Shown here: positions 22,245 through 57,648 of the stretch, in pieces
Layout of the letters: every line of letters begins with the position of its first letter
Numbering within the stretch: the first letter of the stretch is position 1
Assembly (NCBI RefSeq): GCF_030818955.1
Contig: NZ_JAUTBF010000001.1
Coordinates: 3,348,001 to 3,412,000, forward strand
DNA: 64,000 nt
Direction of reading: 5' to 3'
From: Microbacterium trichothecenolyticum
Lineage (GTDB): Bacteria; Actinomycetota; Actinomycetes; Actinomycetales; Microbacteriaceae
Made by a program: the position numbers and the translations under genes
The notes under the pieces: model-generated
Seen by the model: only the letters and a program-made list of their open reading frames with translations
Database searches by the model: none
Told to the model about the DNA's origin: nothing

Positions 22245-22327
22245 GCCGTCGGGCGGAGGCAGTGGTCGGACGTGCCGGGTGGGGATGCCGGTGGGTCGGT
22301 GTGTCGGTTCTGGTTTCCGTCTGACGG
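22245..22327. repeat. 82-bp palindromic element, copy A
   Basis: Outer arm GCCGTCGGGCGGAG (22245-22258), centre GGGGATGCCG, inner word CGGTGTGTCGG, and a degraded right outer arm ending TGACGG. Lies in the gap between the convergent ends of murB and the aminotransferase gene, 49 bp before copy B. The most decayed copy of the family. Confidence 0.6.
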
Positions 22328-22375
22328 TTCGGCGGGGGAGGTCCTGCTGCAGGCCGGTGCCGTCGTTGTGGCAGT

Positions 22376-22457
22376 ACCGTCCCGCGGGGTCTTCGTCGAC
22401 ACGCCGCCCTACGGGGGCACCGACGCGGCGTGTCGACCACGGACTCCGCAGGACGGT
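22376..22457. repeat. 82-bp palindromic element, copy B
   Basis: Outer arms ACCGTCCCGCGGGGT and ACTCCGCAGGACGGT pair with one or two mismatches; the inner arms GTCGACACGCCG (22395-22406) and CGGCGTGTCGAC (22426-22437) pair perfectly. Sits between the convergent ends of murB and the aminotransferase gene and would fold into a long two-part hairpin. Confidence 0.75.
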
Positions 22458-22506
22458 TACGCGGCGCCATGCCGCGGGCGGCGACCGACCCCGCCTCCTC
22501 CCGGCG

Positions 22507-23707
22507 TCAGGAGAACAGGCGCTGGAGGCGCTGCACGCCCTCGAGGAGCTGCTCGTCGCCGAGGGCGTAGGACAGGCGCAGGTAGCCGCTGGGGCCGAAG
22601 GCCTCGCCGGGGACCACGGCCACTTCGGCCTTCTCGAGGATGAGGTCGGCGAGCTCGAGCGAGGTGGTGGGCGTGACGCCGTCCCAGGAACGGTTCAGCA
22701 GTCCCTGCACGTCGGGGTAGACGTAGAACGCGCCGAGGGGGTTCGGCACCTCGACACCGTCGATCTTGGCCAGTTCCGACACGATCAGCTGACGGCGGCG
22801 GTCGAAGGCGAGACGGAACTGCTCCGCCTCGTCCTGCGGGCCGTTGAGGGCTGCGGCCGCGGCGATCTGAGCGACGTTGTTGACGTTGCTCGTCAGGTGC
22901 GACTGCAGGTTGCCGGCGAGCTTCATGGCATCCGCCGGTCCCACCATCCAGCCCACGCGCCACCCGGTCATGGCGTAGGTCTTCGCGACGCCGTTGACGA
23001 GGATCGTCTGCTCGGCGAGCTCGGGAACGGCCTCGACGATCGACACCGCGCGGGTGCCTTCGTAGGTGAGGTTCTGATAGATCTCGTCGGTGATGACCCA
23101 GATGCCGTGCTCGAGCGCCCAGCGGCCGATCTCGGCGGTCTCTTCGGGGGTGTAGACCGAGCCGGTCGGGTTCGAGGGCGAGACGAAGACGAGCACGGTC
23201 GTCTTGTCGGTGCGGGCGGCCTCGAGCTGCGCGACGGTGACCTTGTAGTCCTGGTCGGCACCGGCGAACACCTCGACGGGGGTACCGTCGGCGAGGGCGA
23301 TCGCCTCGGGGTAAGTGGTCCAGTACGGCGCGGGCAGCAGAACCTCGTCGCCGGGGTTCACCACGGTCTGGAAGGCCTGGTACACCGACTGCTTGCCGCC
23401 GTTGGTGACGATGACCTGCGACGGCGCCACCTCGAGGCGCGGAGTCGCGCAGCGTCTTGGCCGCGATCGCTTCGCGCAGCACCGGGAGCCCTGCGGCGGG
23501 GGTGTAGCGGTAGTTCTTGGGGTTCTGCAGCGCCTCGGCGGCGGCATCCACGATGAACGAGGGTGTGGCGAAGTCGGGCTCGCCCGCGGCGTAGGAGATG
23601 ACCGGTCGGCCGGCGGCCTGGAGGGCCTTCGCCTTGGCATCGACCTTCAGGGTCGCGGACTCGGCGATGGCGGACAGCTTGCGGGAGAGCGGGGCGCGGG
23701 AAGTCAC
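22507..23707 (-). pseudogene. aspC: Aspartate/tyrosine aminotransferase (class I/II PLP), frameshifted
   Basis: The N-terminal part ([20 protein letters not shown] ... [14 protein letters not shown] ... [19 protein letters not shown]) and the rest ([17 protein letters not shown] ... [12 protein letters not shown] ... [17 protein letters not shown] with the PLP lysine ... [10 protein letters not shown]) are in different frames. The break is near 23437-23443, where a conserved D-S-G-L-E-V is expected and one extra base is present; removing it gives exactly 400 codons. Likely a family I aspartate transaminase, normally a housekeeping gene beside murB in this lineage, which makes a sequencing error as plausible as real loss. 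Confidence 0.82.
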
Positions 23708-23796
23708 GGGGAAAGCCTACTGTTTGCGCCCTCGCGCGGAGAGGGTGTGACGCCGCGCGGTCTGGGGCGGGCGCACGGCTCCGATAGCGTGGCGGG

Positions 23797-25092
23797 GTGA
23801 CAGCAGAACCCCTCGCACCCCCGCGTACCCACCGTCGTGCGATCGGATTCCTGCTCAAACTGGGCGTGGCCAGCATCATCGTCGGCATCGCGACCGGTCT
23901 CGCGGTGCTGCTGCTGGTCTGGATCGTGCACTCGATCGAGCACCTGATCTGGGGCCACGAAGAGGGTCCGTTCCTCGACGGACTCCCGATGCCGTCGCCG
24001 TGGTGGCTGCCGATCGTCACGGTGGGGGGTGCGGGTGTCATCGCCGCCGTCGGGTGGTACCTGATCCGCCGTTTCGGCCGTAAGCTCGCCACCGTCGAGC
24101 AGGGCGTCGACGGCGCGCACATGCCCTGGTGGGAGACGCTCGTCGACACGGTGCTGCAGGTGACCTCGGTCGCCCTCGGCGCCTCGATCGGCAAAGAGGT
24201 CGCGCCGCGCGAGCTCTCCGCGATGGCGGGCTCGAAGATCGTGCGCTGGTTCGGCCTCAACGCCCGGTGGTGCCGCATCCTCATCGCCTCCGCCGCCGGC
24301 GCGGGTCTCGCCGCGGTCTACAACGTGCCGCTGGGCGGCGCGCTGTTCGCGATCGAGATCCTGCTCGCCCAGTTCAGCGTGGGTGCTGCGGTCGTCGCCC
24401 TGTCGGTCAGCGCGATCGCCACCTTCGTCGCGCGTCCGCTGGTGGGGGAGGAGTCGCTGTACCAGGTGGCATCCCTCGAGGTGAACGCCTCGCTCGTGGT
24501 CGCCGCCCTGCTGATCGGTCCGCTCATGGGCTGGGGGGCGACGAGCTTCGCGACCGTGACGAAGGCGCTCGGCCGGTTCCGCCCGACGGGCTGGAAGCTG
24601 CTCGTCGTTCTGCCCCTGACCTTCACCGCGGTCGGTGTGCTGGGGGCGTTCTTCCCGCTCATCCTCGGCAACGGCCGTGCTCTGGCCACCGCGGGCTTCG
24701 ACCTCTCGCAGCCGGCGCTACTGCTGCTCCTGCTCGCGCTGCTGAAGTACGTCGCCACCACCGTCTCGCTCGGGTCGGGTGCCATCGGCGGCACCCTGCA
24801 GCCCTCGGTCGCGATCGGCGCGGCGCTCGGCGCCGCCGCCGCGGCGGGATGGGCGTTCATCTGGCCGGGCGCCGATGCCACAGCCCTCGCCATCGTCGCG
24901 GCGGCGGCGTTCCTGGCATCCAACATGCGCGCCCCGTTCACGGCGATCGCCCTGGTGATCGAGTTCACCGACACCGGGTTCACGCTGCTGCTGCCGATCT
25001 TCCTGGCCGTGGCCGGGTCGCTCGCGGCCTCGCGGCTGTCGTCGCGCGCGGGCCTGCGGAAGTTCGCGCCGATCGACCCGGGCCGGGAGTAG
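23797..25092 (+). CDS. ClC family chloride channel/transporter
   Basis: 431 aa, about ten membrane helices. Anion-selectivity motifs are visible in modified form: GASIGKEVAPRE near 127 (GxxxGxEgP class), AAVYNVPLGGALFAIEI near 170-187, and SGAIGGTLQPSVAIGAALG near 328 (GxFxP class). ClC proteins move chloride or fluoride by channel or H+ antiport mechanism; no C-terminal CBS domains are present. Starts at GTG 23797, 89 bp from the divergent aminotransferase. Confidence 0.87.
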   Translation: MTAEPLAPPRTHRRAIGFLLKLGVASIIVGIATGLAVLLLVWIVHSIEHLIWGHEEGPFLDGLPMPSPWWLPIVTVGGAGVIAAVGWYLIRRFGRKLATVEQGVDGAHMPWWETLVDTVLQVTSVALGASIGKEVAPRELSAMAGSKIVRWFGLNARWCRILIASAAGAGLAAVYNVPLGGALFAIEILLAQFSVGAAVVALSVSAIATFVARPLVGEESLYQVASLEVNASLVVAALLIGPLMGWGATSFATVTKALGRFRPTGWKLLVVLPLTFTAVGVLGAFFPLILGNGRALATAGFDLSQPALLLLLLALLKYVATTVSLGSGAIGGTLQPSVAIGAALGAAAAAGWAFIWPGADATALAIVAAAAFLASNMRAPFTAIALVIEFTDTGFTLLLPIFLAVAGSLAASRLSSRAGLRKFAPIDPGRE

Positions 25093-25109
25093 GCCGCCGA
25101 GTCGCGTGA

Positions 25110-25142
25110 CGAGGGGCCGGGGCTCGTGGCCCCGACCCCTCG
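25110..25142. terminator. Bidirectional terminator-like hairpin between ClC and aceB
   Basis: CGAGGGGCCGGGGC, loop tcgtg, GCCCCGACCCCTCG: a 14-bp stem with one mismatch in the 59-bp gap between convergent genes. No T tract on either strand. Confidence 0.6.
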
Positions 25143-25151
25143 GCATCCGGC

Positions 25152-26819
25152 TCAGTCCAGGTATTTCGCGTACGCCGGAAGCGTCAGGAACGCCGGGAAC
25201 TCCGGGCGCAGCGCCACCTCGCGGAACACCTCGGCGGCGTCGTCGAAGCGGTCGCCGTCGGACCGCGGTGCCTCGGCGAGCACGCCCTTCACGAGTCCCT
25301 CGACGAAGGCGCGGGTGATGGCATCCCCCTCCGCCGTGACGCGGTCCTGGTGGATCCACTGCCAGATCTGCGAGCGCGAGATCTCGGCGGTCGCGGCATC
25401 TTCCATGAGGTCGTCGATCGCCACGGCGCCGAGGCCCCGCAGCCACGCCTCGAGGTAGCGGATCGCCACAGACACGTTGCCGCGCACGCCGGCCCTGGTG
25501 ATGGGCAGGCCGATCCGCAGATCGAGCAGGTCGGCGGGGTCGATCGACACCTCGTCGCGCGTGCGCCCGAGCTGGTTCGGCTCGTCGCCCAGCACCGCGT
25601 CGAACTCCGCGCGCGCCACCGGGATGAGATCGGGGTGGGCAACCCAGGTGCCGTCGAAGCCGTCTCCGGCCTCGCGCCGCTTGTCGGCGGCGACCTTCTC
25701 GAACGCCGCTGCGGTCACCTCGGGCTTGCGGCGGTTGGGGATGAACGCGCTCATGCCGCCGATCGCGTACGCGCCCCGCTTGTGGCAGGTCTGCACGAGC
25801 AGCTCGGTGTAGGCCCGCATGAACGGCACCGTCATCGTGACCTCGCTGCGGTCCGGCAGCACGAATCGCGCCCCGCGACCGCGGTAGGTCTTGATGATCG
25901 AGAAGATGTAGTCCCAGCGGCCGGCGTTCAGGCCCGCGCAGTGGTCGCGCAGGGCGAAGAGGATCTCCTCCATCTCGAACGCCGCGGGCAGCGTCTCGAT
26001 GAGCACCGTCGCGCGGATCGTGCCGTGCGCGAGGCCCAGCCGCTCCTCGGTGAACGAGAAGACGTCATCCCACAGGCGCGCCTCCTCGGCCGACTCGATC
26101 TTCGCCAGGTAGAAGTACGGCCCCCGGCCCGCCGCGATCAGCGCGTGCGCGTTGTGGAACACGTACAGCCCGTAATCGACGAGGGATCCGGATGCCGGCA
26201 GCTCACGGCCGGAGCGATCGACGAACGTCACGTGCTTCTCGGGCAGGTGCCAGCCGCGCGGGCGCATCACGATCGTCGGCGTCCGCTCGGCGGTGACCTC
26301 GTAGCGCTTGCCCTCGGCGTTCGTGAACGACAGCTGCCCGCGGATCGCGTCGAACAGCGAGAGCTGCCCGCCGATGACGTTCCGCCAGGTCGGGCTCGTG
26401 GCATCCTCCTGATCGGCCAGCCACACCCGCGCACCGGAGTTCAGTGCGTTGATGGTCATCTTCGGGTCGGTGGGGCCGGTGATCTCGACGCGGCGGTCCT
26501 CCAGGCCCGGGCCAGCGCCGGCCACGCGCCACGACGGGTCGTCGCGGATGTGCGCGGTGTCGGCGCGGAAGTGCGGGTCGTCGCCCGTGCCGATCTCGAA
26601 GCGCCGGCGCTCGCGTGCGGCGAGCCGGTCGTGCCGGCGCCGGGCGAAGCGGTCGTGCAGCTCCGTGAGGAACGCGATCGCCGCGGGCGTGAGGATCTCG
26701 GCATCCCGGCCTTCGAGGGGGCGTTCGAGGCGCAGGTGGGGGACGGATGCCGCGGCCTGCGGCGTCGCGCCGGCCGGTGTCGTGGTGGTCGGGGGCGGGG
26801 GAGAGGTGATGAGGGTCAT
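25152..26819 (-). CDS. aceB: Malate synthase A
   Basis: 555 aa from ATG 26819, the usual length for malate synthase A. Signature elements: DPKMTINALNSGARVWLADQEDATSPTW near 115-142, RPRGWHLPEKHV near 190, ATVLIETLPAAFEMEEIL near 268 and RWDYIFSIIK near 302. It condenses glyoxylate with acetyl-CoA to malate in the glyoxylate shunt. The upstream frame is open beyond 26819, but that stretch is intergenic inverted repeat. It follows aceA on the same strand after 148 bp that contain a large hairpin and a G-rich run, so it may have its own promoter. Confidence 0.93.
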   Translation of the reverse strand: MTLITSPPPPTTTTPAGATPQAAASVPHLRLERPLEGRDAEILTPAAIAFLTELHDRFARRRHDRLAARERRRFEIGTGDDPHFRADTAHIRDDPSWRVAGAGPGLEDRRVEITGPTDPKMTINALNSGARVWLADQEDATSPTWRNVIGGQLSLFDAIRGQLSFTNAEGKRYEVTAERTPTIVMRPRGWHLPEKHVTFVDRSGRELPASGSLVDYGLYVFHNAHALIAAGRGPYFYLAKIESAEEARLWDDVFSFTEERLGLAHGTIRATVLIETLPAAFEMEEILFALRDHCAGLNAGRWDYIFSIIKTYRGRGARFVLPDRSEVTMTVPFMRAYTELLVQTCHKRGAYAIGGMSAFIPNRRKPEVTAAAFEKVAADKRREAGDGFDGTWVAHPDLIPVARAEFDAVLGDEPNQLGRTRDEVSIDPADLLDLRIGLPITRAGVRGNVSVAIRYLEAWLRGLGAVAIDDLMEDAATAEISRSQIWQWIHQDRVTAEGDAITRAFVEGLVKGVLAEAPRSDGDRFDDAAEVFREVALRPEFPAFLTLPAYAKYLD

Positions 26820-26860
26820 GGCCGTGACTTTCCGTATTTTCGGCGCCCCCCGTCCTGCAT

Positions 26861-26922
26861 GTTGAGTGTCCAGAACACGCCGTACGACACGAGGCCGAAA
26901 CGGCGTGTCCTGGACACTCAAC
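26861..26922. repeat. 23-bp-arm inverted repeat between aceA and aceB
   Basis: Arms at 26861-26883 and 26900-26922 pair over 23 bp with one mismatch, loop of 16 bp. The arms begin GTTGAGTGTCCAG. It would form a very stable RNA hairpin on either strand; placed between the two shunt genes it could be a terminator or attenuator that sets the aceA/aceB ratio. Confidence 0.75.
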
Positions 26923-26967
26923 GGAAGGGGGGCGAGGGGGGGGAGGGGGGAGAGAGGGGGGAGGGGG
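26923..26967 (+). repeat. G-run tract at the aceA 3' end
   Basis: Almost pure purine stretch with seven runs of four or more G separated by single A or C, ending at the aceA stop codon. On the plus strand it could form G-quadruplex DNA; in the aceA mRNA it is a C-rich tail. Confidence 0.7.
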
Positions 26968-28266
26968 TTAGTGGAACTGGGCGGTCTCCGTCGAACCCGC
27001 GAGAGCCAGGGTGGCGCTGTCGGGGTTGAGCGCGGTCGAGACGACGTCGAAGTAGCCGGTGCCCGCCTCGCGCTGGTGGCGCGTGGCGGTGTAGCCGTTG
27101 GCTTCGGCGGCGAACTCGGCCTCCTGCAGCTCGACGTACGCGCTCATGGCGCGTTCGGCGTAGCCGCGGGCGAGGTCGAACATCGAGTGGTTGACGGCGT
27201 GGAAGCCGGCCAGGGTGATGAACTGGAACGCGTAGCCCATCGCCGCCAGCTCCGCCTGGAACGTCGCGATCTGGGCGTCGTCGAGGTGGCGCTTCCAGTT
27301 GAAGCTGGGCGAGCAGTTGTACGCGAGCTTCTTGCCCGGGAAACGGGCGTGGATCGCCTCGGCGAAACGGCGCGCGAGCTCGATGTCGGGCTCGCCCGTC
27401 TCGACCCACAGCAGGTCGGCGTAGGGCGCGAAGGCCAGGCCGCGGGCGATGACGGCAGGAAGGCCCGGACGCACCCGGTAGAACCCCTCCGTCGTGCGCT
27501 CGCCGGTGAGGAACTCCCGGTCGCGCTCGTCGACGTCGCTGGTCAGCAGGTCGGCGGCCAGGGCGTCGGTGCGCGCGATGATCACCGTCGGCACCCCGGC
27601 GACGTCGGCCGCCAGGCGCGAGGCGTTGAGCGTGCGGATGTGCTGCTGGATCGGCACGAGCACCTTGCCGCCGAGGTGGCCGCACTTCTTCTCGCTCGCG
27701 AGCTGGTCCTCCCAGTGGATGCCGGCGGCCCCCGCCTGGATGAGCGACTGCGCGAGCTCGTAGGCGTTGAGCGGACCGCCGAAGCCGGCCTCGGCGTCGG
27801 CGACGATCGGCGCGAGCCAGTCCTGAGTCACTTCTCCCTCGGCTCGTTCGATCTGGTCCTGGCGCAGCAGGGCGTTGTTGATGCGGCGGACGACGGCGGG
27901 CACCGAGTTGGCCGGGTACAGGCTCTGGTCGGGGTAGGTCTGTCCCGCGAGGTTGCCGTCGGCGGCGACCTGCCAGCCGCTGAGGTAGATGGCCTTGAGC
28001 CCGGCGCGCACCTGCTGCACGGCCTGGCCGCCGGTGTACGCGCCGAGCGCACGGACGTACTCCTCGGTGTGGATGAGGTTCCAGAGGTTCTCGGCCCCGC
28101 GGCGGGCGAGCGTCGCCTCTTCGCGGACGGTGCCCCGGAGGCGGACGACATCGTCGGCCGAGAACGTGCGCTCGATGCCGTCCCACCGGGGGTCGGCGTC
28201 CCACGAGGCACGGAGCTCGGCGGCGGTTTCGGTCTGGTCGCCGGGACGCAGCGGGTTGATCGTCAT
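26968..28266 (-). CDS. aceA: Isocitrate lyase
   Basis: 432 aa, the short bacterial form. The active-site signature KKCGHLGGK with catalytic Cys is near residue 190; GWQVAADGN near 92, [13 protein letters not shown] near 155 and YNCSPSFNW near 314 are also present. It cleaves isocitrate to succinate and glyoxylate, the entry step of the glyoxylate shunt needed on acetate, fatty acids or ethanol. Divergent from the RamB-like regulator, whose C. glutamicum relative represses aceA and aceB. Confidence 0.95.
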
Positions 28267-28320
28267 GAGCTTCTCCTTCGGATGCCGGGGCGTCGGTGCC
28301 CCGTGACGACCACTGTGCGC

Positions 28321-28372
28321 GAAGATCGACGCCCTGAAACCGCATCCGCGTTGTGAAGATTGCCCGATCTTC
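28321..28372. promoter_or_regulatory. Candidate RamB-type operator between aceA and the regulator gene
   Basis: GAAGAT (28355-28360), six bp, ATCTTC (28367-28372) form an inverted repeat, and another GAAGATCG lies at 28321-28328, all in the 128-bp divergent gap. The words are not the published C. glutamicum RamB consensus, so this rests on symmetry and position. Confidence 0.4.
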
Positions 28373-28394
28373 TGCGGCTGTGAGACTCTGGCGT

Positions 28395-29873
28395 ATGGAC
28401 ACCGGCGTCTCGATTTCTTCGGCATCCCTTCCGCTCGACGATGAAGAGGTGGACACCCTCACCATCGGCCGACGCATCCGTCAGCTGCGCACCGCGCGCG
28501 GCCTGACCCTCGACGACCTCGCCACCGCGGTCGGCCGCGCTCCGAGTCAGATGTCGATGATCGAGAACGGTCGCCGAGAGGCCAAGCTCACCCTCCTCCA
28601 GGCGATCGCCCGCGCGCTGGAGTGCAGGCTCGACCAGATCCTGGATGCCGAGCCCCTCGACGCCCGCGCCACCCTCGAGCTGTCGGTCGAACGCGCGATG
28701 CGCGGGCAGACGTTCCAGGCCCTGGGAATCGCGCCGTTCCGGGTCGGGCGCGCGGTGCCGGATGAGGCGCTCGCCGCGATGCTCGCGCTGCAGGCCGAGA
28801 TCGAACGCCTGCGGGAGGAGCGGTCGGCAACACCCGAGGAGGCGCGACGCGCGAACGTCGCCCTACGCCGCCTGATGCGCACGCAGGACAACCACTTCCC
28901 GGAGCTCGAGCGCGTGGCATCCGAGATTCGGGAAGCGATCGCGCACCCCGGCGGCCCGCTCACGCAGCGCGGGGCGAGCGACATCGCCGCGCACCTCGGC
29001 TTCTCGCTGCACTACGTGCCCGACCTGCCGTCGTCGACGCGCAGCATCGCGGATGCCAAGAACGGTCGGCTGTACCTCTCGACGAAGGTCGCGAAGGGCG
29101 ACCCGCGCGCGGCGGTGCTGCAGGCGCTGTCGAGCCGAATCCTCGGACACGGCGAGCCGACGAGCTACGACGAGTTCCTTCGCCAGCGCGTGGAGACGAA
29201 CTACCTCACCGGGGCACTGCTCATGCCTGAGGCGCACGTCGTCACGGCCCTGCGCGAGGCGAAGGAACGGCGCACGATCAGCATCGAAGACCTCCGCGAC
29301 GCCTATTCGGTGTCGTACGAGACCGCCGCGCACCGCTTCACCAACCTCGCGACCGTGCACCTCGGCATCCCGGTGCACTTCCTGAAGGTGCACGAGTCGG
29401 GGACGATCACGAAGGCGTACGAGAACGACGACGTGAACTTCCCCACCGACCGGCTGGGCTCGATCGAGGGGCAGATGTGCTGCCGGCGGTGGACGAGCCG
29501 TGTGGTGTTCGACGAGGACGACCTGTTCAACCCGTATTACCAGTACACCGACACCGGGAACGGCACGTACTGGTGCACGGCGCGCGTGGAGCAGTCGAGC
29601 GAGGGCGCGCACTCGGTGAGCGTGGGGGTGCGCTTCGACGACACGCGGTGGTTCCGCGGGCGGGACACGCCGAACCGCGGGGTGTCGCGGCACTCGGTCG
29701 AGACGTGCTGCCGGCGTGCGCCCGCGGAGCTCGAGAACGCATGGCGCGGACAGGCGTGGCCGAACGTGCGCACGCCGCGGACACTGCTCGCGACCCTGCC
29801 GACCGGGGCGTTTCCGGGGGTGGACACGACGGAGATGTACGAGTTCCTGCAGGCGCACGCGCCGGGGGAGTGA
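28395..29873 (+). CDS. RamB-like short-chain acyl-CoA-responsive regulator (XRE, ScfR family)
   Basis: 492 aa from ATG 28395. An N-terminal XRE helix-turn-helix ([39 protein letters not shown]) near 23-60 is followed by an ImmA/IrrE-like middle and a Cys-rich C-terminal region ([23 protein letters not shown]) as in RamB, the repressor of acetate-metabolism genes in C. glutamicum. Position beside aceA supports that role. Start chosen because it places the helix-turn-helix at the usual distance; an upstream start would overlap the aceA promoter. Confidence 0.88.
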
Positions 29874-29882
29874 CGCCGCCCG

Positions 29883-30860: not shown

Positions 30861-31086
30861 GTGTCCTCCTACGAACGTGGTCGGGGCCTCCAGATTCGCG
30901 CGCTCTTCCTCCCGGGGAATTACCCGTCGATTTCTCTCACGTAACGAAGCACGCACGCGTGTGGCGGGCGTCTGGGATGAGCGTGCACGAGCGGCAGAAC
31001 CAATGCGCACCATCGGCTTTCCGCGTCGGTTCGGGGTGGGTGTGCGACGTAGCTTCCCCTCATCCATCGAGCCCAGGGAGCGAAAC

Positions 31087-41011: not shown

Positions 41012-41094
41012 GTCGTCGTGCGGAGGAGGGTTGTGGCGCGCCGTTCGGGGGTGCCGATGGCGCGGCGTGTCGTGGATGAACTCCGCATGGCGGT
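41012..41094. repeat. 82-bp palindromic element, copy G
   Basis: Outer arms GTCGTCGTGCGGAG (41012-41025) and CTCCGCATGGCGGT (41081-41094), inner GCGCGCCG and CGGCGTGTCG, centre GGGGGTGCCG. The only copy seen between two genes in tandem rather than convergent. The rest of the 291-bp gap before the glycosidase holds no gene; its last 60 bp carry the promoter. Confidence 0.65.
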
Positions 41095-43543: not shown

Positions 43544-43625
43544 GCCGTCCTGCGGAGGTGGGGTCGTGATACCGGTGTCGCTGGGGCGGAGACGGGGGTG
43601 TGGGCCTCGGGGTCCGCGGGACGGC
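43544..43625. repeat. 82-bp palindromic element, copy F
   Basis: Outer arms GCCGTCCTGCGGAG (43544-43557) and TCCGCGGGACGGC (43613-43625) pair with one mismatch. Inner part is diverged (TACCGG, GGGTGTG). Located between the convergent ends of the TetR and DUF559 genes. The rest of that 266-bp gap (to 43769) is GC-rich sequence with no gene. Confidence 0.75.
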
Positions 43626-43769: not shown

Positions 43770-44624
43770 TCAGCGCCGGTGAATGCCCCGCTCGACGTGC
43801 GCGCCGATCGCGCGCTCGACCGTCTCCCAGTCGTGCACGACCAGCGCGTAGTCGAATCGGAGGGTGACGAAGCCTTGCGCCGCGGCCCGCGCGTCGCGAA
43901 GCAGGTCACGGTGCCGGTGCTCCGCGCTCCTATGGTTCTCGACGCCGTCGACCTCGACGATCAGAGCGTCGCCGATGAGGAGGTCAACTCGGCCCACCGT
44001 GTCGATCCGAACCTGCGTGCGCACGGTCAGGTCGAGATGGCGCAACCGCCATCGCACGAGAGACTCCAGCCCGCTCTCGGCGTCGCGCCGCGCGAGAGCG
44101 ATCGCCTCGCGAGCGAGAGGTGACGTGTTCTTCGCGAGCCAGTCCAGACCCGACCGACCGATCTTGCGTGCGTGGAGGGCGGACTCCAGGGCCACGAAGA
44201 ATTCCTCAACGCCGCGACAGAAGAAAATCTGTCGCAGGATGCCGCGGATCGTGGCGAGGCGGAACCTGTTGCGCTCCTCGTGGTCCCAGTGCTCGACGCA
44301 CACGCACCCGTCGTGCGGGTGTCCGTGCCCGTGCGGCCGCAGAGCGATGTGGAGGGGATCCGTCGGCGACAGGACCCAGAGTCCGACGTGCCGGGCGGCG
44401 CTGACGCAGGCGAGCGCTCCGCCATGCAGGGCCGCGCTCCGACGCGGCTCGCACGTCTCGGCATCCGCATACACCCCTCGCCGAAGGCGGACGAACGATC
44501 CGTTGCCGACCGCGCGGTCGATGTCGTGCCGACGGAACCCGGCCTCGAGGAGGTCGAGCCGTCGATGGATTCCGTCGGCTGGTGTGCACACGCCCTCATG
44601 ATCGTCATCGGCGACGCGCCGCAT
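43770..44624 (-). CDS. DUF559 domain protein with AbiEi-like N-terminus
   Basis: 284 aa from ATG 44624. The N-terminal part (HDIDRAVGNGSFVRLRRGVYAD) resembles the winged helix of AbiEi-type antitoxins; the C-terminal part is a Vsr/endonuclease-like DUF559 fold (VDLLIGDALIVEVDGVENH ... RHRDLLRDARAAAQGFVTLRFDY) with the D-x(n)-E-V-D core. Very common in actinobacteria, function unproven. The frame is open upstream to 45092, but that part is translated tandem-repeat DNA. No toxin partner is adjacent. Confidence 0.75.
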   Translation of the reverse strand: MRRVADDDHEGVCTPADGIHRRLDLLEAGFRRHDIDRAVGNGSFVRLRRGVYADAETCEPRRSAALHGGALACVSAARHVGLWVLSPTDPLHIALRPHGHGHPHDGCVCVEHWDHEERNRFRLATIRGILRQIFFCRGVEEFFVALESALHARKIGRSGLDWLAKNTSPLAREAIALARRDAESGLESLVRWRLRHLDLTVRTQVRIDTVGRVDLLIGDALIVEVDGVENHRSAEHRHRDLLRDARAAAQGFVTLRFDYALVVHDWETVERAIGAHVERGIHRR

Positions 44625-44700
44625 GCCCCGATTCGGACGATCTGTGGATGCCGACGGCATCCGGTGATCAGGGGAGGAGGAGTGCCGGATGCCATTCCCC

Positions 44701-44927
44701 GGCCGTCCTGCGGAGTCCGGTGAGCGGTGGTTCTGTGGCCGTCTGTCGTCCTGCGGACTTCGGTGCTGAGACCCCGGCCGTCCTGCGGAGTCTGATGGGC
44801 GGTGGTTCTGTGGCCGTCTGCCGTCCCGCGGACCTCGGCGCCGAGACCCCGTGCCGTCCTGCGGAGTCTGATGGGCGGTGGTTCTGTGGCCGTCTGCCGT
44901 CCCGCGGACCTCGGCGCCGAGACCCCG
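44701..44927. repeat. Tandem repeat, three units of 75-76 bp
   Basis: Units start at 44701, 44776 and 44852; the last two are almost identical. Each opens with GCCGTCCTGCGGAGT, the outer-arm word of the 82-bp palindromic family, in the same orientation. Fills the upstream half of the 622-bp gap between the divergent DUF559 and sugar-ABC genes; no credible gene is seen in that gap. Confidence 0.8.
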
Positions 44928-44963
44928 GTCGCGGCGGTGAATTCGGCAGGAAAGGTGGGCCAT

Positions 44964-45135
44964 CTCCGCAGGACGGCGGTGGGGCACGAGGGACGGTCGG
45001 CGGGCTGTGGCGGGACTCCGCAGGATGGCGGTGGGGGCGCGAGGGACGGTCGGCGGGCTGTGGCGGGACTCCGCAGGACGGCAGTGGGGCACGAGGGTCG
45101 ATCAACGGACGAGGGAGAGAACTCCGCAGGACGGC
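44964..45135. repeat. Tandem repeat, three units of 52-53 bp, inverted arm word
   Basis: CTCCGCAGGAyGGC, the complement of the word in the preceding array, starts at 44964, 45016, 45069 and 45122, with the units between repeating CGAGGGACGGTCGGCGGGCT. The two arrays together make a large inverted structure built from the arms of the 82-bp element. Confidence 0.8.
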
Positions 45136-50318: not shown

Positions 50319-50326
50319 GGACGCGG

Positions 50327-51454
50327 ATGGCGGAGGGGCAGGCGACGCGTCGACCGACCGTGTACGACGTCGCGCACGAGGCCAACGTCTCGATCGCCTC
50401 GGTGTCGTTCGCGTTCCGCCGCCCCGACAAGCTCAGTGACGCCACGCGTCAACGCGTGCTCGACGCGGCGCGGCGGCTGGGGTACGCCCCCAGCGCCGCC
50501 GCCCGCGGTCTCGCCCACGGGCGCACCGGCACGCTCGGCCTGCACGCCTTCGACCTGCTGCTGGAGCGCGCCGACCCGCTGGCCCAGCCGCTGAGCGGCA
50601 TGCACTCGCCGCCGCTCGACACCGGGGGAGTGATCCCCTGGGACCAGACCGACGACGACGTGCTCTCCGACCCGCGGGCCTTCCCCCTGTACGTCGACGA
50701 GGTGCAGCGCGGGTTCGAGCTGGAGTGCTGGGCTCTCGGGCGGCCGGTGATGCTGAGCAGCGGATCGGATGCCGACGTGTCGGTCGCCGACACGGTGGGA
50801 CGCGTCGACGGGCTGGCGATCTTCCCCTCGCCGCAGACCGCACCGACCCTCGCCCGGCACTCGCTGAACATCCCGATCGTGCTCTTCAGCGCCGCCCCCG
50901 CCGACGACAGCCACCACCGGGTGCGCGTCGACAATGCCCGCGGCATGCGGGCGCTGGTGGGTCACCTCGTCGACGAGCACGCCGCGACCGACCTCGCGTT
51001 CGTCGGGCGCCTCGAGGCCACGGATGCCGTCGAGCGACGCGACGCGCTGATCGCCGAGCTCGAGGCCCGTGGCATCCGTCCCCGTCTCGACGTGGTCGAC
51101 GCGACCGTCCGCGGGGCCGACGACCTCGTGCCGCAGCTGCGCGCCCTGATCGCCGAGGATCGGATGCCGCAGGCCTTCGTCTGCGCGACCGACCAGAACG
51201 CCTTCACCCTGCTCGACGTGCTCGCTTCCGAGGGTGTGCGCGTGCCCGCGGACGTGATCGTCACCGGGTTCGACGGCACCCTCGGCTCGCGCCTGACCAC
51301 CCCGCCGCTGACGACCGTGCGACAGCCGATGGAGGCCATGGGCCGTGCCGCCGCGCGGATCCTCGCCGGCACGGCCGGTGCTCCGCCCGCGGGCGGCGCG
51401 TTCGACGTCGTGTTCGAGCCGCGGGTGCAGGTGCGGGCGAGCTGCGGCTGCTGA
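50327..51454 (+). CDS. LacI family transcriptional regulator
   Basis: 375 aa. N-terminal helix-turn-helix and hinge: TVYDVAHEANVSIASVSFAFRRPDKLSDATRQRVLDAARRLGYAPSAAARGL. Periplasmic-binding-protein-like effector domain with a typical ending (PADVIVTGFDGTLGSRLTTPPLTTVRQPMEAMGRAAARIL). Encoded 8 bp after the GH3 gene, so it is the local repressor of the ABC-GH3 operon, responding to the imported sugar. Confidence 0.93.
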   Translation: MAEGQATRRPTVYDVAHEANVSIASVSFAFRRPDKLSDATRQRVLDAARRLGYAPSAAARGLAHGRTGTLGLHAFDLLLERADPLAQPLSGMHSPPLDTGGVIPWDQTDDDVLSDPRAFPLYVDEVQRGFELECWALGRPVMLSSGSDADVSVADTVGRVDGLAIFPSPQTAPTLARHSLNIPIVLFSAAPADDSHHRVRVDNARGMRALVGHLVDEHAATDLAFVGRLEATDAVERRDALIAELEARGIRPRLDVVDATVRGADDLVPQLRALIAEDRMPQAFVCATDQNAFTLLDVLASEGVRVPADVIVTGFDGTLGSRLTTPPLTTVRQPMEAMGRAAARILAGTAGAPPAGGAFDVVFEPRVQVRASCGC

Positions 51455-51543
51455 CCGGTCGGGGCGGTGTCGGCCGCGGGCGGTGCCGTTGTGCCGTCGT
51501 GCCGTTGCGCCGCGGTGTCGTCGTGCCGGAGTGCCTGCCTCGT

Positions 51544-51625
51544 GCCGTTGTGCGGAGTTCGTGGGTGATACGCCGGTTGGGGATGCCGTGGACTCGGTGT
51601 GTCGGTTCGGGAGTCCGCGGGAGGG
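51544..51625. repeat. 82-bp palindromic element, copy C
   Basis: Left outer arm GCCGTTGTGCGGAG (51544-51557), inner TACGCCGG and CGGTGTGTCGG, centre GGGGATGCCG, right arm TCCGCGGGAGGG. Starts exactly 100 bp before copy D; the two share most of their sequence. Lies between the convergent LacI and hypothetical genes. Confidence 0.75.
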
Positions 51626-51643
51626 TCGGTGTGGGTGGGTCGT

Positions 51644-51726
51644 GCCGTTGTGCGGAGTTGGTGGGTGACACGCCGGCTGGGGATGCCGTGGACCCGGCGT
51701 GGGAGATCGGAACTCCGCCCGACGGC
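51644..51726. repeat. 82-bp palindromic element, copy D
   Basis: Outer arms GCCGTTGTGCGGAG (51644-51657) and CTCCGCCCGACGGC (51713-51726), inner GACACGCCGG and CCCGGCGTG, centre GGGGATGCCG. Second of two tandem copies in the same convergent gap. Confidence 0.78.
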
Positions 51727-51742
51727 CCGCGGTGACGGCGAC

Positions 51743-52357
51743 TCACATGGCGTTCCACCGCAGCCGCGGCGCCCCGAGGTCGGCGCGGAGGGCGGCGGGG
51801 TCGGCGACAGGGAAGAGGGTGACGATCCGATCGTCGACGGCGTAGGCGAGCGCGGCGGAACCGTCGGGGTGCCGCTCACCGATGGCGATGCGGGCCGAGC
51901 GGCCGTCGACCGTCTCGACGAGGGCATCGGCGCGAGAGAGGACCGATCTGGCCGCCGCTGTCGCTCGAACGAGCAGCGTCTCGGCGGTGCCCCACGGCTG
52001 GAGGCCTCCGGCGGGCAGGCCGCACGCGCGCTCGAGCTCGCCCGACAGCCAACGCTCGCGTTTGAGGCCGTACGGCGTGGGCGTGGTCGACAGCAGGTAT
52101 CCGTACACGTGCAGCAGTCCGGCATTGCCGACGGGCCATCGCGCCGACAGCCCCGTGCGTCGGTGCAGTTCCTCGAAGAGCGGTCGTGCCACGACCGCCG
52201 CGCCGACGTTCTCGTCGATCACGGTCGAAAGCCCCCACGTCGCGAAACGGCCGGCGTCGCGATCGTCGGCGAGGGCGGCGGCGAGCCACGGCAGGGAGTC
52301 GATGGCGGCCGACGGGTCGGAGGCGGCGAGGGCCGATGCGGCATCGAGAGAGGTCAC
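51743..52357 (-). CDS. Hypothetical protein
   Basis: 204 aa, mostly helical, Ala/Arg-rich, no signal peptide or membrane segment. Segments such as GLSTVIDENVGAAVVARPLFEELHRRTGL and VGNAGLLHVYGYLLSTTPTPYGLKRERW look conserved rather than random, and codon use fits the neighbourhood, so it is taken as real. No family recognised. Divergent from the HAD-Phn operon across 115 bp holding paired operators. Confidence 0.65.
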   Translation of the reverse strand: MTSLDAASALAASDPSAAIDSLPWLAAALADDRDAGRFATWGLSTVIDENVGAAVVARPLFEELHRRTGLSARWPVGNAGLLHVYGYLLSTTPTPYGLKRERWLSGELERACGLPAGGLQPWGTAETLLVRATAAARSVLSRADALVETVDGRSARIAIGERHPDGSAALAYAVDDRIVTLFPVADPAALRADLGAPRLRWNAM

Positions 52358-52409
52358 CGCCCCACGCTACGACGGCGCGGCCGCATCGTTTACACGGTGT
52401 TTACCGGGT

Positions 52410-52456
52410 GTGGACGCAACGTCCACATATAAGGCGCATCATGGACGCAACGTCCA
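52410..52456 (+). promoter_or_regulatory. Promoter bracketed by two identical palindromic operators
   Basis: TGGACGCAACGTCCA occurs at 52411-52425 and 52442-52456, 31 bp apart (about three helical turns), flanking a TATAAG -10 box (52428-52433). Each site is a perfect 6-bp inverted repeat with a 3-bp centre. The downstream site lies 16 bp before the HAD gene start. Likely repressor sites; the RpiR regulator at the end of the operon is the natural candidate. Confidence 0.7.
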
Positions 52457-52472
52457 CACGACAGGAGGCTCC

Positions 52473-53201
52473 GTGCCACGCCCCGTCCTCATCTTCGACT
52501 TCGACGGTACCGTCGCCCTCGGCGACGGCCCCCTGCTGGCCTACGCCCGCGCCGTCGCCGCCCACACGGCATCCCCCGATACGTTCGTCGCGGCGGTCGC
52601 CGCGCAGCTCGCCGCCCCCACGGCCGACGTCATCGACGGCTACGACGTGGTGCGCCGCGCGGCCGAGGCCGAGGCGATTCCCGCTGACGCCCTGTCCGCC
52701 GCTTATCGCGAGAGCCGCGCGCACCTGGGCACACCGGCGGCGCCGATCGCGACCGCCGCCGGCCTCATCGGGTTCCTGCAGGGCGTGGATGCCGAACGCT
52801 TGCTCGTCACGAACGCCCCGGCGACGCGTCTCGACGAGGCGCTCACCGCGCTCGGCCTGGCGGGGCTGTTCGACCGGATCGTCACCGACGCCGCCAAGCC
52901 CGTCGGACTCGAACTGCTCCTCGACACTCTCGGCGAGGGTGTTCGCGTCCTGGCGATCGGCGACGTGTGGCGCAACGATCTCGCCCCCGCCCACGCGCGC
53001 GGTCACGCCACCGCCCTGGTCGCCGGCTACCCCGACCCCGCAGCCCGCCCCACCTTCCGCGCCGACACTCTCGACGACCTGTTCCCCGCGCTGGGCGACT
53101 GGGTCGCCGCCGCGGGTGACCGCTCTGCTCACGACCCCGCCCTCCGTCACTCCGCTCGCGTCGACGCATCCCCCGCCGAACACTTCCCTTTCTCCGCCTG
53201 A
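52473..53201 (+). CDS. HAD superfamily hydrolase
   Basis: 242 aa from GTG 52473 behind AGGAGG. Motif I is DFDGTVAL near residue 9 (nucleophile and acid/base Asp), motif II LLVTNAP near 110, motif III Lys in AAKPVG near 148 and motif IV IGDVWRNDLAPA near 165. A small helical cap follows motif I. Probably a phosphatase for a phosphorylated compound; the special lysine of phosphonoacetaldehyde hydrolase is not evident. First gene of the PhnD-C-E-E operon. Confidence 0.87.
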   Translation: MPRPVLIFDFDGTVALGDGPLLAYARAVAAHTASPDTFVAAVAAQLAAPTADVIDGYDVVRRAAEAEAIPADALSAAYRESRAHLGTPAAPIATAAGLIGFLQGVDAERLLVTNAPATRLDEALTALGLAGLFDRIVTDAAKPVGLELLLDTLGEGVRVLAIGDVWRNDLAPAHARGHATALVAGYPDPAARPTFRADTLDDLFPALGDWVAAAGDRSAHDPALRHSARVDASPAEHFPFSA

Positions 53202-53226
53202 ACCCACCCGACCCGCAGAAGGAATC

Positions 53227-54221
53227 ATGAACACTCGTCGCATCCGCCTCGCCGCCGCATCCGCCTCGCCGCCGCGTTCGCCGCGGCCGCTCTCGCCTCC
53301 GTCACCCTCGCGGGTTGCTCCGGCTCCGCCGGTGCATCCGACGCCGCGCCCGCCGCCGACCCCAGCTCACTCGTGCTGGCCCTCGTCCCCTCGCAGGACC
53401 AGGCGAACCTCGTCGACACCGCGAAGCCGCTCACCGACATGCTCACCGAGAAGCTCGGCATCCCGGTCACCGGTGTCGTGTCGAAGGACTACCAGGCCGC
53501 CGTCGAAGCCATGGGTGCCGGGCAGGCGCAGATCGGCTTCCTCCCCTCGTTGCAGCTCTGGCAGGCCAACGACCGCTACGGCGCCTCGGTGGTGCTGCAG
53601 ACCGAGCGCAACGGCAACATCACCTACCCCGGGCAATTCATGACGAACGACCCGGACAAGTACTGCCACACCCCGGTCGTCGAGCGCGACGGCATGAGCT
53701 TCTGCAACGGCGCCGACGCACTGAAGGGCCCTGCCGGACTCGACTCGATCACCAAGATCGCCGGGGCCAAGGTGGCCGTGCTCGGACCCGGCTCGCCCGC
53801 CGGGTACATCTACCCGATGCTCGCGCTGAAGGAGGCCGGCGTGAACATCGACGACGGCTTCCAGAAGGTGCCCGTCACCGCCAACGACGCCTCGGTGCTC
53901 GCGGTCTACAACGGTGACGCCGAGGTCGGCTTCAGCTTCTGGGACGCGCGCACGCTCGTGAAGAAGGACAAGCCTGACGTGGGCCAGAAGGTCGTCGTGT
54001 TCGCGCTCACGAACGAGATCCCCAACGACGGCGTCGCCGTGTCGAAGGACCTCTCGCCCGAGTTGCAGAAGAAGATCTCGTCGGCGCTCGAGGAGTACTC
54101 GACCACCGACGAGGGCTCCGCGGCGCTCAAGGCCGTCTACTCGATCACCAAGCTCGCCCCGGCCGACCCGTCCTCGCTCGACGTCGTCGCCCGGGCCGCG
54201 CAGGAGCTCGGACTCCAGTGA
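53227..54221 (+). pseudogene. phnD: PhnD-like phosphonate/phosphite-binding lipoprotein, disrupted by a 17-bp duplication
   Basis: ATG 53227 opens a signal peptide (MNTRRIRLAAA) that runs out of frame, because the 17-bp unit GCATCCGCCTCGCCGCC is present twice in tandem (53240-53256 and 53257-53273). With one copy the reading is MNTRRIRLAAAFAAAALASV, then lipobox LAGC, and exactly 326 codons to the stop. The mature part is intact: LVLALVPSQDQANLVDTAKP, GVVSKDYQAAVEAMGAGQAQIGFLPS and DAEVGFSFWDARTL are PhnD family hallmarks. As read, only a leaderless cytosolic form from GTG 53373 could be made. Confidence 0.88.
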
Positions 54222-55036
54222 CCACCGGTCCTGCGACCCAGGGCGTCGAGGTTCAGACCTCGGCGCCCTGGGGCATCCGTCTCGACGGTGTCTCGGTGCG
54301 CTACCCCAACGGCACGGTGGGGCTGCGCGAGGTGAGCGTCGACATCGCCCCCGGCGACCTCGTCGCCGTGGTCGGGCTCTCGGGCTCGGGCAAGTCCACG
54401 CTCATCCGCACGATCAACGGGCTCGTGCCGCCGACCTCGGGCACCGTCGAGGTCGGCGGGCGCCGGGTCGACGGCGTCTCGGGACGCCGTCTGCGCGAGA
54501 CGCGGGGCCAGATCGGCATGGTCTTCCAGAGCTTCAACCTCGCCGGTCGCACGAGCGTGCTCAACAACGTGCTCGTCGGGCGCCTCGCGCACACGCCGCT
54601 CTGGCGCACACTGCTCGGCGCCTACCGCCACGAGGACCGGCAGCTCGCCTTCGAGGCGCTCGACCGCGTGGGCATGCTGCCCAAGGTGTGGGACCGCGCG
54701 TCGGCGCTGTCGGGCGGTCAGCAGCAGCGGGTGGCGATTGCCCGCGCGCTCACGCAGCAGCCGCGGATCGTCCTCGCCGACGAGCCGGTCGCCAGCCTCG
54801 ACCCGCCCACCGCGCGCGGCGTCATGAACGACCTGCGACGCATCAACGAAGACCTCGGCATCACGGTGCTCGTGAACCTGCACCTGCTCGATCTCGCGCG
54901 CGAGTACGGCACGCGCATGATCGGCATGCGCGCCGGAGAGATCGTCTACGACGGGCCCGCGGCATCCGCCACCGACGCCGACTTCGCCGAGATCTACGGG
55001 CGCTCGGTGACCGCCGCCGACAGGCTCGAGCGATGA
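54218..55036 (+). CDS. phnC: PhnC-like ABC transporter ATPase
   Basis: 272 aa from GTG 54218, overlapping the binding-protein stop by 4 bp. Walker [11 protein letters not shown] near 54, signature [16 protein letters not shown] near 166 and Walker [15 protein letters not shown] near 185; the long insert with [14 protein letters not shown] is typical of PhnC. Energises import of phosphonates, phosphite or related organophosphorus compounds through the two following permeases. Confidence 0.92.
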
Positions 55037-55827
55037 CCTCGCTCACCGTGCCCGCTCGCCCGAAAGGGCGGTGGATGCCGTGGACCGCCGCCGCGGTGAT
55101 CGTCGCCGTCACGATCGTCATGTGCCTGCCGGGGATCGGCGTCGGCCTCGACATCGCCGCGATCGCCCGCAACTGGCAGCAGGGTGCCGTGCGCATCGTC
55201 GAGCTGCTGGCCCCGGACTGGTCGTTCTTCCCGCGCACGGTCGGCCCCCTGCTCGAGACGCTGCAGATGGCGGTGATCGGCACGGCCGTCGGTGCCGCGA
55301 TCTCGCTGCCGCTGAGCTTCTGGGCAGCGCGTCCGACGAACCCCGTGGGGTGGACGCGTGCGGTGCTGCGCGGCATCCTGAACATCGTCCGCGCCGTGCC
55401 CGAACTCGTCTACGCGGCGGTGCTCGTGGCGATGGTCGGCGTCGGCGCCCTTCCGGGCATCATCGCGCTCGTGCTGTTCAACGTCGGCATCGTGGTCAAG
55501 CTCGTGTCCGAGACGATCGACGCGTCCGACGCCGGTCCGCTGGAGGCGGGGCGCGCGGCAGGCGGCACGCAGACGCGTATCAACCGTGCGATCGCCCTGC
55601 CCGACACGTGGCCCGCGTTCATCTCGCAGACGCTCTACGTGTTCGAGCTGAACGTGCGCGCCTCCACGGTGCTCGGACTCGTCGGCGCGGGCGGGATCGG
55701 TCTGCTGATCGACGCCGTGCGCACCTTCTACCGCTACGACCAGCTGTCGCTCATCATCGTCGAGATCCTCGTGATCGTGGTCGTGCTCGACACCGTCAGC
55801 GACGCGATCCGCCGGAGGCTCGTATGA
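55033..55827 (+). CDS. phnE: PhnE-like ABC permease, first
   Basis: 264 aa; ATGA overlap with phnC. Six membrane helices, with [38 protein letters not shown] near 68 and the coupling loop [21 protein letters not shown] near 170. Probably forms a heterodimer with the next protein. Confidence 0.9.
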
Positions 55828-56648
55828 CCGCCCTCGCCCCCGCGCGCGCCGCCGCGCTCGTCGTGCCCCCGCGCCGCCGGAACCCCGTTCGCGTGATCGC
55901 CGGCGTCGTGCTCACGGCGATCGTCGTGGCCGCCTTCTGGTCGGCCGACATCGGGTGGTCCCGGCTCGGCGACCTGCCCGCCGAGATCGTGCGCTACCTC
56001 GGCCTGATGTTCGCCGCGCCGAACTGGTCGAAGCTGCCCGAGGCGCTCTGGCAGACCTGGCGCAGCGTCGAGATGGCGTGGATCGGCACCGTTCTCGGCA
56101 TCCTGATCGCGACCCCGCTGTCGCTCGTCGCGGCGCGCGGCTTCGGTCCGGCCCCGGTACGGGTGGCGCTGCGTCTCGTGTTCTCGCTCGTGCGCGCCGT
56201 ACCCGAGCTGGTGTTCGCGATCATCATCCTCTCGGTCACGGGGCTCACCCCGCTCACCGGTGCGCTCGCGCTGGCGGTCGGGGGAGTGGGCACGCTCGGC
56301 AAGTGGGGTTACGAGGCCGTCGAGAACGTCGCCCCCGGCCCCATCGAGGCCGCCCGCGCCGCTGGCGGGTCGACGGCGCAGGTGCTGCGCTGGGGCGTCT
56401 GGCCGCAGACGACCCCGACGTTCCTGTCGTTCTGGCTGTACCGCTTCGAGATCAACGTGCGCGCCTCGGCCGTTCTCGGCCTGATCGGCGTCGGGGGCAT
56501 CGGCGACATGCTCACCTCGTACACCCAGTACCGTGAGTGGTCGACGGTCGGCATGTTGCTGATCGTCGTCGTCGCCGTCACCGTCGCGATCGACGCGGTG
56601 TCGGGGCGCATCCGCCGCCGCATCATGGAGGGTCACCGTGTCCGCTGA
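55824..56648 (+). CDS. phnE: PhnE-like ABC permease, second
   Basis: 274 aa; ATGA overlap with the first permease. Same arrangement of helices, with WRSVEMAWIGTVLGILIATPLSLVAARGFGP near 82 and coupling loop EAARAAGGSTAQVLRWGVWPQ near 175. Two fused or adjacent PhnE genes are common in PhnCDE systems of Gram-positive bacteria. Its 3' end overlaps the regulator gene by 11 bp. Confidence 0.9.
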   Translation: MTALAPARAAALVVPPRRRNPVRVIAGVVLTAIVVAAFWSADIGWSRLGDLPAEIVRYLGLMFAAPNWSKLPEALWQTWRSVEMAWIGTVLGILIATPLSLVAARGFGPAPVRVALRLVFSLVRAVPELVFAIIILSVTGLTPLTGALALAVGGVGTLGKWGYEAVENVAPGPIEAARAAGGSTAQVLRWGVWPQTTPTFLSFWLYRFEINVRASAVLGLIGVGGIGDMLTSYTQYREWSTVGMLLIVVVAVTVAIDAVSGRIRRRIMEGHRVR

Positions 56649-57489
56649 GGTGCCCGTCACCGCTCGCATCGCGGCCGTGCGCAACTCGCTGCAGCCCAGC
56701 GAGCGCCGCGTCGCCGACCTCATCGTCGACGACCCGGACGCCGTCATCGAGCTGACCGCGCAGCAGATCGCCGACCGGGTGGGGGTGGGCCGGGCCACGG
56801 TCGTGCGTGCCTGCCAGACCTTCGGCTACCGCGGGTATCCGCAGCTGCGTGTCGCGCTCGCGGCGGAGCGGGGGCGCCGCGCGGCACCGGCGCCGACCGC
56901 CGAGGACGGCCCGCTCGGCGGCATCCGTTCCGCCATCGACCGCATCGCCGACGATCTGCGCGCGGCCACCAGCCTGCTCGATGCCGGTGTGGTCGCGCAG
57001 GTCGTGGATGCCGTCGTCGGGGCGCGACGGCTGTTGGTGGTGGCGAGCGGTCTCTCGGCGCCGGTGGCCACCGATCTCGCGATGCGCCTGACCGCGGTGG
57101 GGCGCTCGGCCGAGACCGTGGGCGACCCGATCGGCCAGCAGATCGCCGCCCGGCACCTCGCGCCCGACGACGTCTGCATCGTGATCAGCGGGTCGGGGGC
57201 GAACGAGGCGAGCCTGCGGGCTGCGGCGGCTGCGCGTGCGGCCGGCGCGCGCGTGATCGCCCTGACCTCGTTCGTCGCATCGCCCCTGACCGAACGCGCT
57301 GACCTCACCCTCGCGCTCGCGTCGGGCGGCACGTTCCGCGACGAGCTCGAACACACCTCGCGCATCGCCCACGCGGTCTTCGCCGAGGCGTTCGTCGATG
57401 CCGTGGCCCATGCCCGCTCCGGCGACGCCGCCCGCGCCCGCGCCCGGGTGCTCGAGATCCTCTCCGACAACCTCGGCGACGCCGGCTGA
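56638..57489 (+). CDS. MurR/RpiR family regulator with SIS domain
   Basis: 283 aa from GTG 56638. N-terminal RpiR helix-turn-helix (ARIAAVRNSLQPSERRVADLIVDDP ... TAQQIADRVGVGRATVVRACQTFGYRGYPQLRVAL) and C-terminal SIS domain (GARRLLVVASGLSAPVATDLAMRL ... DVCIVISGSGANEASLRAAAAARAAGARVIALT), which binds phosphorylated sugars. Last gene of the HAD-phn operon and probably its repressor. A sugar-phosphate sensor on a phosphonate-type importer hints that the real substrate is a phosphorylated sugar or polyol. Confidence 0.9.
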   Translation: MSAEVPVTARIAAVRNSLQPSERRVADLIVDDPDAVIELTAQQIADRVGVGRATVVRACQTFGYRGYPQLRVALAAERGRRAAPAPTAEDGPLGGIRSAIDRIADDLRAATSLLDAGVVAQVVDAVVGARRLLVVASGLSAPVATDLAMRLTAVGRSAETVGDPIGQQIAARHLAPDDVCIVISGSGANEASLRAAAAARAAGARVIALTSFVASPLTERADLTLALASGGTFRDELEHTSRIAHAVFAEAFVDAVAHARSGDAARARARVLEILSDNLGDAG

Positions 57490-57497
57490 CCCTCCCC

Positions 57498-57537
57498 TTC
57501 GGTTTCGGTTTCGGTTTCGGTTTCGGTTTCGGCTTCG
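57498..57537 (+). repeat. Hexamer microsatellite TTCGGT
   Basis: Five perfect TTCGGT units followed by TTCGGC and TTCG, 9 bp after the RpiR stop codon. A slippage-prone run in the convergent gap before the PucR gene; no coding effect expected. Confidence 0.9.
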
Positions 57538-57566
57538 ACGCCCGGTGCCGGCCCGGCATCCCCCGT

Positions 57567-57648
57567 GCCGTCGTGCGGAGTTCGTTCACGACACGCCGGT
57601 TCCGGCCGTCGGTGCCCGGTGTGTCGGGGCCGATCTCCGCAGGACGGC
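57567..57648. repeat. 82-bp palindromic element, copy E
   Basis: The best-preserved copy: outer arms GCCGTCGTGCGGAG (57567-57580) and CTCCGCAGGACGGC (57635-57648), inner GACACGCCGG and CCGGTGTGTCGG. Located between the convergent ends of the RpiR and PucR genes. The remainder of the gap to 57752 shows no gene. Confidence 0.82.

Follow-up and report, generated by a model that had tools for sequence, protein, structure and literature searches.

Nested palindromes dispersed through the Microbacterium trichothecenolyticum genome and an AbiEi-nuclease gene as their candidate partner

How does a family of long nested palindromes come to be scattered between the genes of a bacterial chromosome? The question is raised by a 64,000-nucleotide stretch of Microbacterium trichothecenolyticum (the window; positions 3,348,001-3,412,000 of a one-contig genome of 3,735,270 bp, handle G000; for murB, the named strains that match best are of Microbacterium testaceum, with 92-93% identity). 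Seven palindromes of 82-83 bp are present there, exactly where an original prediction made from the sequence had placed them. They are probably the dispersed partner sites of a protein encoded among them, at 43770-44624, in which an AbiEi-like DNA-binding part is joined to a nuclease domain; the partnership would be one of recognition and cleavage, maintained by recombination. Palindromes flank this gene in relatives, the arms beside the gene agree with those dispersed in the same genome, arms and protein diverge together, and the arms are conserved while the spacers are free at fixed length. This points to an undescribed gene-and-repeat partnership that resembles the one between repetitive extragenic palindromes (REPs) and RAYT transposases and is built on an unrelated enzyme.

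The nuclease gene and the palindromes around it

The 284-amino-acid protein (P0001) is a fusion of two parts, an AbiEi-like one at model residues 16-179 and, at 184-281, a nuclease domain of the Vsr/EDxHD homing type. Both the AbiEi fold and the Vsr/I-Bth0305I-type catalytic fold with its conserved acidic residues are recognized, and an alignment of 60 sequences shows no variation in the nuclease columns E187, D214, D226 and H231. In Pfam, DUF559 scores above its cut-off and MTES_1575 below. The closest solved catalytic domain is that of I-Bth0305I, tied with NGO0050, and no PDB sequence matches the nuclease protein family at E<=1. The neighbouring genes encode a TetR regulator and a sugar-binding protein; a Pfam scan of both found no AbiEii toxin, and neither is a methyltransferase. 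The original prediction held that no transposase is linked to the palindromes. This is literally correct, yet the interval that it reported contains this nuclease gene, whose close homologues are palindrome-flanked; the gene was overlooked, together with the adjoining array of single outer arms (44702-45135).

Homologues of P0001 were sought in 118 relatives. In the 19 best-scoring relatives, the best homologue of each genome lies between full palindromes in 18 cases. Palindromes on both sides are found in 3 of 20 further homologues at 42-53% identity (L249, L262, L265) and in none of 20 distant paralogues at 32-46%, one of which has a weak one-sided match; these three fractions belong together, as the subfamily is defined after the fact by its flanking palindromes. 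Two homologues from another genus of the same family are also flanked on both sides. The matched stretches are open in all 22 cases, the gene of this genome included.

A flank test that is independent of the palindrome sequence, scoring any repeat common to the 400 bp on each side of a gene (score >=22), is positive for 21 of 24 subfamily genes. Among the remaining AbiEi-DUF559 genes it is also positive for 34 of 47 within the genus (two loci counted twice, 33 of 45 distinct, L307 left out) and for 8 of 16 outside it. None of 185 random genes of this genome and none of 69 murB genes are positive (0/254 in total). In several of these genes, L260, L264, L266, L272 and L286 among them, the shared repeat is a plain palindrome of unrelated sequence. 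Repeats on both sides therefore look like a property of the wider AbiEi-DUF559 family, and wide dispersal like a property of this branch. In this genome the AbiEi-DUF559 paralogues at 635611, 1380588 and 2316629 (L269, L270 and L272) each have unrelated repeats common to both flanks. The repeat family beside 2316629 gives five exact arm matches, four at the gene and one elsewhere; its one-mismatch pattern is no commoner than the reversed control, and little dispersal is seen.

Across 12 genomes, gene-flank arms match the dispersed arms of their own genome (none of 20,000 permutations is as high), in a comparison that contains some chance matches within genes; G087 is a clear exception and G019 agrees. 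The identity between proteins rises with that between their arms (r=0.43, p=1e-4, n=22), with correlations of 0.47 for the N-terminal stretch, 0.47 for the middle and 0.12 for the nuclease, all uncorrected for phylogeny. At least ten palindrome-model rows, with at most 38 scored per genome, occur in 19 of 21 genus genomes with a flanked gene versus 8 of 50 in which none was found (p=4e-9, 71 genomes). Those eight are G001, G010, G018, G023, G071, G073, G077 and G092; candidate explanations are loss of the gene, a missing contig or another partner.

The nuclease gene occupies at least three chromosomal contexts, as judged by its neighbours. At the 3′ end of a PucR gene, G080, G019 and G006 carry a palindrome-nuclease-palindrome unit. 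This genome (window 57567), G085 and G075 carry a single palindrome there, and their nuclease gene sits between the TetR and sugar-binding protein genes. From these three occupied and three single-palindrome genomes, the PucR 3′ end is a candidate target of the gene, and the change may have gone in either direction. In G066 and G015 the palindrome-nuclease-palindrome unit also lies beside PucR.

Copies, anatomy and placement of the palindromes

A covariance model built from the seven window copies matches 49 distinct places in the 3,735,270 bp at E<=0.1, with lengths of 82 bp (37 matches), 83 bp (6), 81 bp (3) and 68, 74 and 84 bp (one each). Four of these are of another kind: 414709, 2995735 and 3007961 are members of a sister family, and 3392896 falls within the arm array. 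This leaves about 45 plain copies, the weakest at E up to 0.07. The pattern CGTCSTGCGGAG-N45..60-CTCCGCASGACG has 5 matches in the genome and 0 in the reversed control. The exact 12-mer CGTCSTGCGGAG is found 39 times: 31 in elements, 6 in the array and 2 elsewhere. The region from 0.46 to 2.2 Mb, 46% of the chromosome, holds just 2 of the 49 matches (p=5e-11 for copies, 9e-8 for gaps).

An alignment of 42 elements from many species reveals a common plan. Each half-site reads GTGC, a clade-specific block of ~7 bp, CGGAG, nine free bases and GACACGCCG, and two such halves face each other as mirror images across 18-19 free bases. Elements of relatives measure 82-87 bp and are likewise symmetric with two arm pairs. 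For GACACGCCG-N14..26-CGGCGTGTC in the 118 relatives, centres are nearly all 17-19 bp among the matches listed, and the reversed control matches in one genome. The outer blocks are similar within a genome, and both arms switch between clades (161 cells altered on both sides versus 57.7 shuffled), although pairing is inflated in the underlying alignment (A2), as candidates with <9/16 arm pairs had been dropped beforehand. Model R2 was trained on 42 sequences, of which at least one (L043:2555-2640) adjoins such a nuclease gene.

Placement was scored with a simple codon-usage gene caller made for this analysis. As predicted, convergent gaps hold six of the seven copies in the window; the seventh, 41012, is in a tandem one. 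Genome-wide, the convergent location is enriched and not exclusive: the 49 copies divide into 19 convergent, 21 tandem, 5 divergent and 4 within called genes. The 36 element gaps of this genome, among them those with the arm array and with two copies of the sister type, are 15 convergent, 16 tandem and 5 divergent, against 18, 50 and 33 among its 101 gaps of >=150 bp (convergence p=0.005). The corresponding counts are 8, 9 (plus one in a called gene) and 0 in G028, and 5, 8 and 0 in G020. Pooled against the same own-genome baseline, the three genomes give a convergent excess (p=7e-4) and a divergent depletion (p=7e-5). An excerpt of PMC3733652 describes a similar convergent and unidirectional bias for REPs. 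The predicted dispersed family of constant length, with drifting spacers, a convergent bias and REP-like behaviour, holds.

Table 1. Features of the window (window coordinates)
Feature	Coordinates	Strand	Context
Nested palindrome	22245..22327	.	murB/aminotransferase convergent gap
Second nested palindrome	22376..22457	.	murB/aminotransferase gap
Nested palindrome	41012..41094	.	Tandem gap
Nested palindrome, inner arms divergent	43544..43625	.	3′ side of nuclease gene
Nuclease gene, 284-aa protein (P0001)	43770..44624	-	Between palindrome copies
Three 75-76-bp repeats, each with outer arms GCCGTCCTGCGGAG + GYCGTCCYGCGGAC, no inner arms	44697..44923	+	Upstream of nuclease gene
Four reversed single outer arms, spacing 52-53 bp	44964..45135	-	Upstream of nuclease gene
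Nested palindrome	51544..51625	.	Convergent gap 3′ of LacI-type gene
Second nested palindrome	51644..51726	.	Gap 3′ of LacI-type gene
Single palindrome	57567..57648	.	PucR 3′ end
PucR-family regulator	57753..59282	-	Anchor of conserved site

In the sister palindromes the inner arms are identical or almost identical to those of the main family, but the outer arms adjoin them directly (e.g. GTTGAGTGTCCA or CGAGTCGCCA) and the centre is ~16-18 bp; besides the three in this genome they occur in L110, L173, L177, L183-L185 and L187. No partner gene was found for the sister family. G042, from another family of the order (L046, L170), has exact inner palindromes at five places, each with an 18-bp centre; two of them read with outer arms directly adjoining. 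No P0001 homologue is found there at E<=1e-10. The murB-aminotransferase gap of L061 holds what appears by eye to be a decayed element with both outer arms and its inside missing. Three tRNA genes also lie in the window (4183-4254, 4289-4362 and 63942-64000, the last truncated by the window end).

Arm pairing and competing explanations

Complementary arms had been taken in the original prediction as a sign of selection on structure. Covariation does not bear this out: in 36 copies of 82 bp from this genome, 411 of 504 outer-arm positions are paired versus 407.9 in row permutations (p=0.28), and 234 of 324 inner-arm positions versus 236.2 (p=0.61). Compensatory change is also absent in G028 (19 copies) and G020 (21 copies; p 0.13-1.0 in both), where a small number of 87-bp rows are misaligned across the inner arms. 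Spacer identity among the copies of this genome, neighbouring ones included, is 0.431 versus 0.426 after column shuffling; between loci it is 0.516 versus 0.517 in G028 and 0.494 versus 0.514 in G020. Clear spacer sharing is limited to neighbouring duplicates. Arms and distances that are kept, spacers that are free and arm changes left unanswered in the partner arm form the pattern of a two-fold symmetric protein target, and the symmetry of the palindrome looks like that of a dyad site. The joint switch of both arms between clades would also be expected of such a site. Two observations weigh against a protein target. Two pairs just outside the 82 bp are paired above the permuted level in this genome (p=0.017, 0.013), and the two 9-bp spacers of an element, left and right, show lower mutual complementarity than permuted ones in three genomes (G000, G028 and G020; p 0.003, 0.012, 0.013); the flanks, unlike these spacers, mostly lack such a reduction.

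It is unlikely that whole elements are copied to new sites in REPIN fashion by the nuclease or by a lost transposase. Such RAYT-like dissemination would agree with an enzyme gene that has its cognate repeats on either side and further copies scattered between genes, and with the neighbouring duplicates with identical spacers, yet spacer identity between loci does not exceed column shuffles in any of the three genomes. The RAYT search that had been suggested gave no PF01797 match in this genome at E<=0.001; 4 of the 118 genomes have one. Equally doubtful is a role as sites that serve the host, with the AbiEi part acting as a global regulator, insulator or nucleoid-type protein at gene ends and the nuclease domain incidental or regulatory. 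Conserved arms with free spacers at fixed length are compatible with this, as is the avoidance of divergent gaps (5/36, 0/18 and 0/13 in the three genomes). However, the model matches nothing at E<=1e-4 in 34 of the 71 genomes of the genus, the arms change wholesale between clades, and the four nuclease columns are invariant.

Bidirectional transcription terminators or RNA hairpins are an improbable explanation. They would agree with the convergent and 3′-end bias, the strong predicted consensus fold and the weak covariation of the two outer pairs, and an open internal loop might require the reduced spacer complementarity. The arms nevertheless lack compensatory change, a separate hairpin is seen by eye beside the murB element in some species, and the association with the nuclease gene is left unexplained; termination as the sole cause is rejected. 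A miniature inverted-repeat transposable element (MITE) derived from an insertion sequence whose terminal repeats are long and bipartite is very improbable: palindromic ends and intergenic location fit, but near-identical copies are neighbours only, the centre is nearly always 17-19 bp among the matches listed, and all 28 exact half-sites of the genome lie inside elements, so that a resident parent with exact ends is rejected. A phage origin is dismissed, as 16 viral stretches contain the inner palindrome but have only 5-13 of 30 flanking positions paired and are mostly alike in sequence.

Proposed mechanism and relation to known systems

In the favoured partnership of palindromes and AbiEi-nuclease, the AbiEi part would bind the spaced inverted arms as a dimer or a dimer of dimers, and the N-terminal or middle region of the protein would confer the preference for the clade-specific block. 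The Vsr/EDxHD-type domain may then nick or cut at the palindrome, and breaks would be repaired by recombination with another copy. Such binding, cutting and repair would allow the gene to move between palindromes in a homing-like manner, leave a single palindrome upon its departure and keep the copies recognizable over long times. Excerpts of published work report that AbiEi binds inverted 11-mers at 27-bp spacing (PMC3985639) and that I-Bth0305I dimerizes on nearly 60 bp (PMC3943268); a fusion of both suits an 82-bp dyad target. In one paper, again in excerpt, a DUF559 gene is placed among the EDxHD homing enzymes (PMC9403480).

The palindromes share with REP/REPIN-RAYT systems (REPtrons) their dispersal between convergent and tandem genes and an enzyme gene with the matching repeats on both sides; according to excerpts of PMC3733652 and PMC3116915, REPtrons are repeat-specific in species that have more than one repeat family. 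They differ in that the enzyme is an AbiEi-Vsr/EDxHD nuclease and not a Y1 transposase, and copies at different loci show no spacer kinship. REPs are palindromes of 20-40 bp with a GTAG or CGTC end tag, whereas the present elements are 82-87 bp, four-armed and without an unpaired tag of either kind. The homing endonuclease I-Bth0305I offers the nearest solved catalytic domain, tied with NGO0050, and is reported to act as a dimer on a very long target; here, however, the DNA-binding part is AbiEi-like, and the gene is free-standing between palindromes, not intronic, with about 45 target-like sites in the genome. In contrast to type IV toxin-antitoxin AbiE, a nuclease domain is fused in place of an adjoining AbiEii toxin. 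In contrast to the Vsr very-short-patch-repair endonuclease, a DNA-binding part is added and the two neighbours scanned include no methyltransferase.

Among the matches listed in a search of the open-access literature, no paper links DUF559/AbiEi nucleases with palindromes. More tentatively, at somewhat less than even chances, the AbiEi-DUF559 proteins of Actinomycetes could be a new class of palindrome-partnered nucleases, in which each paralogue is bordered on either side by palindromes of its own (an antitoxin operator that became a homing target), spread to tens of chromosomal sites in some lineages, with arms and enzyme co-evolving as lock and key. Palindromic repeats elsewhere that lack a transposase, such as CGTC REPs, could have their missing partner in this enzyme class.

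An antitoxin-type DNA binder with a homing-type nuclease, unrelated to RAYT, stands in the same relation to its repeats. Its clade-specific arms provide a natural specificity series, and a family so far named just AbiEi, DUF559 or very-short-patch-repair endonuclease gains a lead to its function. With this, the role of orphan palindromes becomes testable.
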